NCBI RefSeq assembly: GCF_000011485.1
Contig: NC_005071.1
Coordinates: 871,347-935,346 of the forward strand
DNA from: Prochlorococcus marinus str. MIT 9313
GTDB lineage: Bacteria > Cyanobacteriota > Cyanobacteriia > PCC-6307 > Cyanobiaceae
DNA: 64,000 bases
Reading direction: 5' to 3'
Part shown: positions 33,679-39,158 of the stretch, in pieces
Position numbering within the stretch: the stretch's first letter is position 1
Layout: each line of letters opens with the position of its first letter
Notes under the pieces: model-generated
The model's database searches: none
What the model was told of the DNA's origin: nothing
What the model saw: only the letters and a program-made list of their open reading frames with translations
Position numbers and translations under genes: made by a program

Positions 33679-34020
33679 TCAGCACGTGAACTGAATATCA
33701 CCATCTCTGATTCCATTTTTTTTATATTTCACGGCAAGTTGATGCCAATCCTCAGGGATTTGATTGAGGCGAATATCCCAAGCCAAAGGCAATCGTTGTT
33801 GGCCTGGTGAGATCTTATTTTTCTTGCTTCTAGTTCTTGCACTGCTCACCAGCCGTTTAAGTATGCGACTACCCCAGTGGCACTTTGGAGCGCCTTTGCC
33901 GTGATGGCGATAGCGCTGGCAGAAACGTTCATAGCGCTTGGCACAACCATCGAACGTTGCCGAGAGCATTAAAAAGGCATGGCTCCATTCACTGATGCCG
34001 TCTGATTGCAACCTGATGTA
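33679..34020 (-). pseudogene. Y1 transposase relic, C-terminal third (copy 1)
   Basis: Encodes only the C-terminal roughly 110 residues of the island's Y1 transposase (compare the full copy at 35597-36391): QSDGISEWSHAFLMLSATFD, then KRYERFCQRYRHH, KCHWGSRILKRL and the tail [16 protein letters not shown]. Homology to the full gene stops at the codons for HYVRLQ; beyond that point the procA upstream region begins. The same breakpoint is found beside procA genes 2, 3 and 4. Confidence 0.8.
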
Positions 34021-34077
34021 GTTGAAGTTTCATACAATTCAATCGATACTTGTGCATTCATCAGCCTTAGATTGTGC

Positions 34078-34083
34078 TATACA
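34078..34083 (+). promoter_or_regulatory. Possible -10 element of procA copy 1
   Basis: TATACA in the context TGCTATACAT, 23 nt before the ATG, inside a 90-nt upstream block shared by procA copies 1, 2 and 4 (copy 4 reads TATAGA). Promoter activity is inferred. Confidence 0.3.
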
Positions 34084-34106
34084 TAAAGCATAGACAACTA
34101 CATCTG

Positions 34107-34370
34107 ATGTCAGAAGAACAACTCAAGGCATTTATTGCCAAAGTTCAAGCCGATGCTTCACTACAGGAACAGTTAAGGACAGAAGGAGCTGATGTTGTAG
34201 CCATTGCCAAAGCTGCAGGCTTCTCGATTACCACAGAAGACCTAAACTCTCATCGCCAAAATCTGTCTGATGATGAGCTGGAAGGTGTGGCTGGGGGAGG
34301 GGGGAAAATGACTGTACGCGGAAGAGACATGAGCTGTGGGTGTCAGGATTACTGGGAGGATGATTACTGA
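34107..34370 (+). CDS. procA: Prochlorosin precursor peptide 1 (lanthipeptide)
   Basis: An 87-aa RiPP precursor. The leader (residues 1 to about 66) is of the Nif11/nitrile-hydratase-like type: MSEEQLKAFIAKVQADASLQ, VVAIAKAAGFSITTEDL, then ELEGVAGG, the double-Gly site where a C39 exporter cuts. The core after GG is about 22 residues with Cys, Ser and Thr: VRGRDMSCGCQDYWEDDY; it could form two (methyl)lanthionine rings. A LanM synthetase (ProcM) would have to act in trans, as is known for prochlorosins. No Shine-Dalgarno sequence is evident. The leader DNA is identical to copy 2 while the cores are unrelated. Confidence 0.95.
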   Translation: MSEEQLKAFIAKVQADASLQEQLRTEGADVVAIAKAAGFSITTEDLNSHRQNLSDDELEGVAGGGGKMTVRGRDMSCGCQDYWEDDY

Positions 34371-34450
34371 CAAACAAACTGTCGCAGACATATATTCAGC
34401 TGTCCCTTGCAGCTGCCTCTGACAGGACATACCACAGCCTACACACTCAA

Positions 34451-34476
34451 AGCCCTTGCATTAGCAGGGGCTTTTT
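34451..34476 (+). terminator. Terminator of procA 1
   Basis: AGCCCTTGC-ATTA-GCAGGGGCT stem with a T5 tract. The same terminator follows procA 2, 3 and 4. Confidence 0.85.
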
Positions 34477-34655
34477 ATTTCATCAACGACTTCCATATTT
34501 GCTTAAAACGGCATCCGATACCTGGCACCATTGACTTGCAAAAAGTTACCTTGATGTCTTATTTAGCAGGCAACAACCACCAATAGTTTTTCGTATTCAT
34601 CACAAATTTGCCTCTAAATCCTTTTGCCCTAAAACTACTTATATTCCTAACTTAA

Positions 34656-35003
34656 TCACCACAGTCTGAGAGTTTGATCTCCATCTCTGATTCCATTTGT
34701 TTTTCTAAATCTCACCGCAACCTGATGCCACTCCTCAGGGATTTGATTGAGGCGAACATCCCAATCCCATGGCAATCGTTGTTGGCCTGGTGAGATCTTA
34801 TTTTTCTTGCTTCTAGTTCTTGCACTGCTCACCAGCCGTTTAAGTATGCGACTACCCCAGTGGCACTTTGGAGCGCCTTTGCTCTTATGGCGATAGCGCT
34901 GGCAGAAACGTTCATAGCGCTTGGCACAACCATCGAACGTTGCCGAGAGCATTAAAAAGGCATGGCTCCATTCACTGATGCCGTCTGATTGCAACCTGAT
35001 GTA
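34656..35003 (-). pseudogene. Y1 transposase relic, C-terminal third (copy 2)
   Basis: Same extent as copy 1 (about 112 residues, ending at the identical internal breakpoint), with the tail NQIPEEWHQVAVRFRKTNGI closer to the full-length gene. It lies between the procA 1 terminator and procA 2, so it doubles as the downstream flank of procA 1 and the upstream flank of procA 2. Confidence 0.8.
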
Positions 35004-35089
35004 GTTGAAGTTTCATACAATTCAATCGATACTTGTGCATTCATCAGCCTTAGATTGTGCTATACATAAAGTATAGACAACTACATCTG

Positions 35090-35368
35090 ATGTCAGAAGA
35101 ACAACTCAAGGCATTTATTGCCAAAGTTCAAGCCGATGCTTCACTACAGGAACAGTTAAGGACAGAAGGAGCTGATGTTGTAGCCATTGCCAAAGCTGCA
35201 GGCTTCTCGATTACCACAGAAGACCTAAACTCTCATCGCCAAAATCTGTCTGATGATGAGCTGGAAGGTGTGGCTGGGGGAGGGGGAGGCTGTGACGGTA
35301 TCAGGATTACTGACAAACAAACTGTCGCAGACAATACAATTGTCCCTTGCAGCTGCTTCCACCAGTGA
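35090..35368 (+). CDS. procA: Prochlorosin precursor peptide 2 (lanthipeptide)
   Basis: A 92-aa precursor. The leader is identical to precursor 1 at the nucleotide level up to the Gly run (ELEGVAGGGG). The core CDGIRITDKQTVADNTIVP... ends CSCFHQ and has three Cys, three Thr and one Ser, enough for two or three rings. Striking: about 60 bp of this core is homologous to DNA that is 3' untranslated in copy 1, and the shared TCAGGATTACTG is read in a different frame. Modification by a ProcM-type LanM and export by a C39 transporter would be supplied from elsewhere. Confidence 0.95.
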   Translation: MSEEQLKAFIAKVQADASLQEQLRTEGADVVAIAKAAGFSITTEDLNSHRQNLSDDELEGVAGGGGGCDGIRITDKQTVADNTIVPCSCFHQ

Positions 35369-35391
35369 CATACCACAGCCTACACACTCAA

Positions 35392-35417
35392 AGCCCTTGC
35401 ATTAGCAGGGGCTTTTT
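35392..35417 (+). terminator. Terminator of procA 2
   Basis: Same GCCC-rich stem, ATTA loop and T5 tract as procA 1. Confidence 0.85.
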
Positions 35418-35596
35418 ATTTCATCAACGACTTCCATATTTGCTTAAAACGGCATCCGATACCTGGCACCATTGACTTGCAAAAAGTTACCTTGATGTCT
35501 TATTTAGCAGGCAACAACCACCAATAGTTTTTCGTATTCATCACAAATTTACCTCTAAATCCTTTTGCCCTAAAACTACTTATATTCCTAACTTAA

Positions 35597-36391
35597 TCAC
35601 CACAGCAACAGACGTGAATCACCATCACGGATGCCATTCGTCTTGCGAAATCTCACCGCAACCTGATGCCACTCCTCTGGGATTTGATTGAGCCGAATAT
35701 CAAAAGCAAAAGGGAGTTGCTGTTGACCTGGAGATATTCGCTTTCTCTTGCTTCTGTTGCTCCTGCTGCTCTGAACAAATCGCTTCAGCATCCGTGAACC
35801 CCAATGGCATTTGGCTCCTGCTTTGGCCTGATGGCGATACCGCTCGCAAAAGCGCTCATAACGCCTGGAACAGCCCTTCAGGCTTGATGCCAGTTGCAGG
35901 AAGCTGGGGTGCCACTCGCTGATGCCGTCTGATTGCAACCTGACGTAGTGGCCATAGTTGGAATAGGGGTCATAAAAGCCTTTCCTTACCCCAGCCGCTT
36001 TGGGATTGGCATGGATATACCTCAAGGTGTTCAACTCCCTTCTGTGGTCTTTGGGGTGGATCGGCGTTGAGAAATACCTGGCCTCCCAGAAGTGCCCACA
36101 ACGGCCGCTCAAGCGGTTCAAGGCCATGGCGGAATACCAGGCGAACCAATGCATCAACCTCGGCAAATCCTTGGCATCGGTTGGCTTAACGAGCAAGTGA
36201 AGGTGGTTAGCCATCAAGCACAGCCCATACACCCTCACAGGAAACTTCTGCTGGGCTTTATTGAGCACTGCCAACAACACATCACGCCTAAGGGCTTTGG
36301 CAATTAAGAACTGCCGGCTATTGCAGCGCAGCGTGATATGGAAACTGCAGCCAGACGGTAGTAAGCGTTTTGCTCTCACCTTTGCCCTCAT
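35597..36391 (-). CDS. Y1 (HUH) transposase, REP-associated/IS200-like family
   Basis: A 264-aa protein, the most complete copy in the island. Motifs: FHITLRCNSRQFLI (first strand), the HUH pair in GLCLMANHLHLLVKP (about 60-74, His-x-His), GHFWEARYFSTPI, and YIHANPKAAGVRKG (about 129-142), whose Tyr is the candidate nucleophile; RAYTs have YIHLNPVRAGL here. The C-terminal 110 residues are basic. Such enzymes cut single-stranded DNA at hairpins. ATG start. Its C-terminal third recurs as relics beside procA 1-4. It is followed by a DUF1651 gene upstream. Confidence 0.9.
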   Translation of the reverse strand: MRAKVRAKRLLPSGCSFHITLRCNSRQFLIAKALRRDVLLAVLNKAQQKFPVRVYGLCLMANHLHLLVKPTDAKDLPRLMHWFAWYSAMALNRLSGRCGHFWEARYFSTPIHPKDHRRELNTLRYIHANPKAAGVRKGFYDPYSNYGHYVRLQSDGISEWHPSFLQLASSLKGCSRRYERFCERYRHQAKAGAKCHWGSRMLKRFVQSSRSNRSKRKRISPGQQQLPFAFDIRLNQIPEEWHQVAVRFRKTNGIRDGDSRLLLW

Positions 36392-37832: not shown

Positions 37833-38096
37833 GTGTCAGAAGAACAACTCAAGGCATTCATCGCCAAAGTTCAAGGCGATAGTTCACTACAGGAACAGCT
37901 CAAGGCAGAAGGCGCTGATGTTGTTGCTATTGCCAAAGCTGCTGGTTTTACAATCAAACAACAGGATCTTAATGCTGCCGCTTCTGAACTGTCAGACGAA
38001 GAGCTGGAAGCCGCTAGCGGCGGAGGCGATACCGGCATCCAAGCGGTGCTGCACACGGCTGGATGTTACGGCGGGACCAAAATGTGCCGCGCATAG
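37833..38096 (+). CDS. procA: Prochlorosin precursor peptide 3 (lanthipeptide)
   Basis: An 87-aa precursor. GTG start replaces the ATG of its paralogues in the same SEEQLKAFIAKVQ context. The leader ends ELEAASGGG, a variant of the GG cleavage site. The core (about DTGIQAVLHTAGCYGGTK then MCRA) has two Cys and three Thr. The upstream region is less conserved than in copies 1, 2 and 4. It would be modified in trans by a LanM synthetase. Confidence 0.93.
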   Translation: MSEEQLKAFIAKVQGDSSLQEQLKAEGADVVAIAKAAGFTIKQQDLNAAASELSDEELEAASGGGDTGIQAVLHTAGCYGGTKMCRA

Positions 38097-38183: not shown

Positions 38184-38435
38184 ATTTCTTAATTAGATCT
38201 AAATTTTCGCCCAAATCGTTCTTCAATACCTGACACCATTGACTTGCAGAAAGTTGCCTTGATGTCTTCTTTGGCAGGTAAAAATCAGCAATAGCTTTTC
38301 GCATTCATGACAAATCTAACGTCAACTTTATCTACCAGAAAACTACTTATATTGCCCAACTAATCACCACAGCCTGAGGGTTTGATCGCCATCCCTGATT
38401 CCATTTGTTTTTCTAAATTTCACCGCAACTTGATG

Positions 38436-39158
38436 CTACTCGTCTGGGATTTGATTGAGCCGAACATCAAAAGCAAAAGAGAGTTGCTGTTGACCTGGTG
38501 ATATTCGATTTCTCTTGCTTCTGTTGCTCCTGCTGCTCTGAACAAATCGCTTCAGCATCCGTGAGCCCCAATGGCATTTGGCTCCTGCTTTGGCGTGATG
38601 GCGATACCGCTCGCAAAAGCGCTCATAACGCCTGGAACAGCCCTTCAGGCTTGATGCCAGTTGCAGGAAGCTGGGGTGCCACTCGCTGATGCCATCACAC
38701 GCCAACCTGCCGTAGTGCCCATAGTTGGAGTAGGGATCAAAGAATCCTTTCCTTACCCCTGCTGCTTTGGGATTGGCATGGATATACCTCAAGGTATTCA
38801 GCATTCGCCGGTGATCTTTGGGATGGATTGGCGTTGAGAAATACCTGGCCTCCCAGAAATGCCCACAACGACCGCTCAAGCGGTTCAAGGCCATGGCGGA
38901 GTACCACGCAAACCAATGCATCAACCTCGGCAGCTCCTTGGCATCGGTTGGCTTGATGAGCAAGTGAAGGTGGTTAGCCATCAGGCAGAGCCCATACACC
39001 CTCACAGCAAATTTCTGCTTGGCCTTTTTAAGTACCGCCAACAACACATCACGCCTAAGGCCTTTGGCAATTAAGAATTGCCTGCTATTGCAGCGCAGCG
39101 TGATATGAAAACTGCAGCCAGATGGCAGTAAGCGTTTTGCTCTCACCTTTGCCCTCAT
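38436..39158 (-). pseudogene. Y1 transposase, nearly full length, amber-truncated
   Basis: 240 aa, over 90 percent similar by eye to the copy at 35597-36391, with the same HUH segment (MANHLHLLIKP) and YIHANPKAAGV. A TGG codon in the tail (NQIPEEW-HQ in relatives) has become TAG, giving a stop after NQIPDE; the remaining 25 or so codons are still readable downstream (to about 38376). The catalytic core is intact, so partial activity is possible. The start MRAKVRAKR at 39158 follows the paralogue. Confidence 0.8.

Follow-up and report, generated by a model that had tools for sequence, protein, structure and literature searches.

Two neighbouring procA genes with the same leader and different cores lie in the window, by which we mean the whole stretch of 64,000 nucleotides from Prochlorococcus marinus str. 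MIT 9313 that was analysed. The host chromosome, of which the window spans 871,347–935,346, is closed (2,410,873 bases) and carries about 30 procA genes and a single LanM gene. The genes and features discussed below are as follows.

34107–34370, plus strand: procA copy 1, Nif11-type leader and core GGGGKMTVRGRDMSCGCQDYWEDDY, stop TGA at 34368–34370 (PF07862, E=9.5e-16; TIGR03798)
35090–35368, plus strand: procA copy 2, leader identical to that of copy 1, core GGGGGCDGIRITDKQTVADNTIVPCSCFHQ (PF07862 and TIGR03798)
34290–34306, plus strand: G-rich run coding for the Gly-Gly(-Gly) cleavage motif of copy 1
34304–34435, plus strand: divergent block of copy 1 from the alignment (core and putative abandoned end), sharply bounded at the Gly-run and again immediately before the terminator
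35287–35376, plus strand: divergent block of copy 2, from the alignment with copy 1
34347–34369, plus strand: direct repeat GATTACTG-GGAGGAT-GATTACTG in copy 1; a single GATTACTG in copy 2 (35305–35312)
34363–34422, plus strand: ghost core in the 3' UTR of copy 1, where copy 2's frame reads ITDKQTVADIYSAVPCSCL* (TGA at 34420–34422)
34449–34474, plus strand: intrinsic terminator hairpin of copy 1 (-18.1 kcal/mol, z -4.5), conserved across the procA family
35390–35415, plus strand: terminator hairpin of copy 2, identical to that of copy 1
37833–38096, plus strand: third procA, core GDTGIQAVLHTAGCYGGTKMCRA, without homology to the cores of copies 1 and 2
33679–34011, minus strand: 3' fragment of a RAYT (REP-associated tyrosine transposase), cut off near codon 148 and lying 84 nt upstream of procA copy 1
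34656–34994, minus strand: RAYT fragment of the same type, between the twins
35597–36391, minus strand: full-length RAYT-like gene (Y1_Tnp; PF01797, 9.6e-15; NF047646), convergent with procA copy 2

Both leaders score far above the TIGR03798 cut-off of 32.3 for Nif11-like leaders (90.7 bits for copy 1 and 90.5 bits for copy 2). In each twin the cleavage motif VAGGGG is followed by a core containing Ser/Thr and Cys, two in copy 1 and three in copy 2. The genome has one PF13575 match, at 281.6–282.8 kb in a 1084-aa open frame, taken as its class II LanM gene. Judged by these sequence features, the twins are a known kind of gene, the precursors of prochlorosins (class II lanthipeptides), and either core may be dehydrated and cyclised by ProcM. 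The core of the third procA we take to be that of ProcA3.3.

The gene at 35597–36391 contains a Y1_Tnp domain (PF01797, 55.2 bits, cut-off 23) and stays below the NF047646 equivalog cut-off (61.7 bits vs 80), and is RAYT-like by best match only. A second RAYT in the window (38367–39158; genome 909713–910504) is 92% identical to it and interrupted by one TAG. Six times in this genome a RAYT 3' fragment lies 81–84 nt upstream of a procA, each cut off at one and the same codon (about 148 of 264). In roughly a dozen cases a RAYT in convergent orientation, whole or fragmentary, is located about 470–580 nt away from where procA starts. This recurring fixed junction looks like a travelling module.

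Homologous core blocks read in different frames

The leader DNA of the twins (34107–34301 and 35090–35284) is identical at 195 of 195 positions, and the flanks are nearly so, as the earlier note had seen: 514 of 520 positions upstream (33784–34303 vs 34767–35286) and 228 of 229 downstream (34436–34664 vs 35377–35605), both without indels. A near-identical unit, about 0.9 kb long, encloses each twin, and its 749 flanking nucleotides contain seven substitutions and no indel. The core blocks differ far more. Aligning 34304–34435 with 35287–35376 gives 79 identities, 8 mismatches and 6 gaps (of 2, 1, 21, 6, 15 and 3 nt); substitutions are concentrated in the core relative to the flanks (Fisher p=3.5e-5), and all six indels lie there.

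The earlier note had further proposed that the cores are read in different frames from homologous DNA, and the alignment bears this out. The shared TCAGGATTACTG is read as TGT-CAG-GAT-TAC in copy 1 and as ATC-AGG-ATT-ACT in copy 2. Moreover, the stretch of the copy 1 3' UTR at 34371–34435, put at about 60 bp in the earlier note, is homologous to the DNA coding for the end of the copy 2 core: 34362–34435 and 35305–35376 align with 64 identities, 7 mismatches and gaps of 1 and 3. Chance likeness is countered by the local score of the pair, which is 83, whereas 67,896 comparisons with reversed sequences give 33 at most; the homology of the twin cores is far above chance level.

The offset between the copies falls from 983 to 943 up to the shared GATTACTGACAAACAAACTGTCGCAGACA (29/29), that is by 40 nt or 15 + 25, and this net shift moves the frame by one (+1). 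Each twin retains traces of the frame of the other. In copy 1 the ghost frame ITDKQTVADIYSAVPCSCL* is open and closely resembles the end of the copy 2 core, PCSC included, and copy 2 reads QDY* in the phase of copy 1. The 15-nt difference looks like a direct-repeat event, since copy 1 has GATTACTG twice, 7 nt apart (34347–34354 and 34362–34369), and copy 2 has it once. The net 25-nt part, which changes the frame, begins at the Gly-Gly G-run and can be aligned in more than one way, so that more than one placement of the frameshifting indel is possible. The sizes of a 15-nt insertion and a different 25-nt block, both assigned to copy 1 before, hold, but an insertion is not required: strand slippage between the GATTACTG repeats, with a deletion in copy 2, explains the difference just as simply or more simply.

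We consider it likely that the twins derive from a recently copied unit and that indels after the copying changed the core frame behind an unchanged leader. The unit would consist of RAYT fragment, procA and 3' UTR. Indels would then have hit the core block, probably through slippage during replication, both on short direct repeats and on the Gly-Gly G-run, and the change of frame behind a constant leader would let homologous DNA code for unrelated cores. Since leader and Gly-Gly site are kept in both, the single promiscuous ProcM could act on either. A different history, in which old duplicates were homogenised on both sides by gene conversion and the core block with its old frameshift is the part that escaped, agrees with the abrupt divergence of the RAYT ends beyond 33784 and 34664 and with the tandem direct repeats, which favour conversion; it needs two separate tracts, each ending at the core edges, and we regard it as unlikely. 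The earlier note had also held that leaders stay untouched. This is true of the twins, but it is no proof of a process sparing leaders, given that the entire unit, about 0.9 kb long, was recently copied or homogenised.

Direction of the frame change

For polarity, the core block was queried against 400 family genomes, which yielded a single relative, a procA of Synechococcus sp. UW105. This gene shares an exact 28 nt with the end of the copy 1 block (34413–34440), and its 3' flank is about 94–96% identical to that of copy 1, the similarity reaching into the 3' end of the RAYT. The UW105 reading frame closes with AAC-TGC-CTC-TGA, a real stop in the phase of copy 2. The matching TGA of copy 1 also falls in copy 2's frame (TGC-AGC-TGC-CTC-TGA); copy 2 itself is without this old stop and now ends TTC-CAC-CAG-TGA. 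Use of the copy 2-phase TGA as a stop in UW105 makes copy 2's frame the likely ancestral one. This suggests that copy 1 had its frame shifted, ran into a TGA early on and abandoned its former C-terminal core to the 3' UTR, and that copy 2 would have retained the frame, lost the old stop and recruited only about three codons. Identity is only 87% (169/195) in the UW105 leader, compared to about 95% in the 3' part, so the gene may be recombinant, in which case the phases may agree by chance with a probability of 1 in 3.

Homology of the UW105 core interior with copy 1 (TCAGGA-TACTGGGA) was set aside, as p ranged from 0.015 to 0.16 with the scoring scheme. Apart from the block end in UW105, homologues of the twin cores were found neither in the compared relatives nor, by exact pattern, in genome_contigs or viral_contigs. 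An orthologous pair for polarising was not found in the relatives either, as the G003 locus holds a single unrelated procA and the G002 contig ends there. The UW105 locus (L101:8414–9440), a procA with a Prochlorococcus-like 3' flank, suggests transfer between Synechococcus and Prochlorococcus. Its RAYT 3' end is, judged by eye, fused in frame to a putative DNA-3-methyladenine glycosylase start.

The mosaic of leader and 3' part in UW105 is also what would be expected if core cassettes were exchanged, one twin having taken its core block from a further procA outside the sample, whose core was homologous but diverged, with leader and 3' UTR/RAYT serving as homology arms; the frame difference would have come with the donor. 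The divergent block is sharply bounded, both towards the leader and towards the conserved 3' UTR, which fits such an exchange, as does the existence of unrelated cores behind leaders that are 99% identical. However, a donor was found neither in the 400 family genomes nor by exact pattern in genome_contigs and viral_contigs, and none is needed, given the clear homology between the two blocks. We find such an exchange distinctly unlikely and retain the reading of indels after copying. The idea in the earlier note that indels shift the frame and recruit or abandon 3' UTR is largely right and partly supported: the shift and the correspondence of UTR and core stand, and further examples exist, but the direction in this pair changes to abandonment in copy 1.

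Recurrence in the procA/syncA family

To survey the family, we took 372 procA/syncA genes from regions of 17 genomes and compared each core plus 60 nt of UTR with every other. With a local score of at least 80 as the group threshold, frame-switched segments appear in 8 of 20 independent homologous core groups, two of them in this genome, as counted by eye from the list and the alignments and ignoring genome kinship. The frame is kept in the other 12, one of which is a stop-loss extension. The frame-switched groups (G, genome; L, locus; G000 is this genome) are:

Twins procA copy 1 and copy 2, this genome
G000 275.0 kb and 1017.4 kb: with a longer G-run, GSSYRNGKCTFGPACPS becomes GGARTKTANVPSDLPVRAP..., which lacks Cys
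G299 L107 and L111: the shifted copy (L111) reads through its own terminator
G282 L145 and G191 L105: 7 nt more G in the run, Cys in both
G282 L141 and L142: leader 98% identical, the UTR of one equals the core of the other, Cys in both
G317 L119 and L126: compensated shift within the core
G317 L118 and L121; G299 L110 and G282 L143 (two groups): C-terminal shift or moved stop

Frame switching is probably one recurring route of core turnover in the procA family. Querying more genomes for the polarity of G282 L141/L142 and G191 L105 gave no more than short or weak matches. Not all turnover is explicable by small indels: several leader pairs that are 99% identical carry cores without any homology, so wholesale replacement or faster turnover also occurs. 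G299 L112/L113 and G000 914.2 kb/1710.9 kb, whose leader DNA is 99.4% identical and whose cores lack homology, are on sequence grounds core replacements by another route. In G002 (L079:5684–6028), a procA core contains a perfect tandem repeat (RPKRDETAGPLTFACTD twice) which is absent from its G003 counterpart (leader identity 92%).

The Gly-Gly junction (GGGGGAGGGGG) is rich in G. GGG codons are enriched at the junction across the family (36% vs 12% in Prochlorococcus), and G-runs of at least 6 were seen there in 8/47 vs 0/97, both counts being inflated by paralogy; this enrichment makes slippage at the junction plausible. A core with Cys and Ser/Thr arises in about 29% of random alternative frames, which is no better than the 25–35% for shuffled DNA. 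The idea that alternative frames are pre-adapted by being Cys-rich was rejected, with 0.34 for real sequences vs 0.31–0.37 for nucleotide-shuffled and 0.29–0.33 for codon-shuffled ones. That the junction is a built-in route of innovation, a slippage-prone hinge which repeatedly joins a fixed leader to new downstream core frames while the promiscuous synthetase exposes each product to selection, strikes us as quite improbable.

This account of the twins' origin is compatible with decay, in which a frameshift would have made copy 1 (or copy 2) a pseudogene with a functionless new C-terminus. The 1017 kb gene, without Cys, and G299 L111, with its terminator read-through, look like such decay rather than innovation, and Cys in both twins may be luck because about 29% of random frames would provide it together with Ser/Thr. 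On the other hand, both twins keep Cys, Ser/Thr, plausible lengths and an intact leader, and both products contain Cys in most frame-switched groups. Decay of a twin is therefore possible, but we think it doubtful.

Relation to known systems

Prochlorosins (ProcA/ProcM) were reportedly described by Li et al. in 2010 and Cubillos-Ruiz et al. in 2017 (PNAS 114:E5424). PMC10783134 credits insertion-deletion of cores to Cubillos-Ruiz 2017 and cites a preprint by Laurenceau et al. (2022) for TnpAREP/RAYT-associated lanthipeptide genes; in PMC10027976 a frameshift is mentioned solely in connection with a truncated gene. The hypervariability of cores, their indels and the RAYT association are already published. 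A description of frame switching in prochlorosins was not found in the accessible literature, and an earlier description is possible. The new part is the documented frame switch, the ghost core and the recurrence.

For diversity-oriented RiPPs it is an open question how a conserved leader comes to be followed by unrelated cores in their hundreds. Intermediates in which one twin's 3' UTR still holds a former core reveal one concrete mutational step that strain sequences can polarise, and our survey supplies a number, in that about 3 in 10 random frame shifts give a potentially cyclisable core. At least seven further cases in relatives suggest that frame switching is one ordinary way in which such bacteria invent new cyclic peptides.

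Overprinting, in which a new peptide arises from an alternative frame, and slippage at contingency loci are general concepts. The procA genes resemble both in the alternative-frame peptide and the G-runs at the junction; the twin evidence, a comparison of sequences, differs from contingency loci in that reversible switching within populations is no part of it. As in the TnpAREP/RAYT-associated lanthipeptide genes, procA is flanked by RAYT genes and fragments, the link to the twins seen here being one of position beside procA. With the prochlorosins the twins share the Nif11 leader, the Gly-Gly site, the hypervariable core and one promiscuous LanM; what sets them apart is homologous DNA in another frame, with the abandoned core end still legible.
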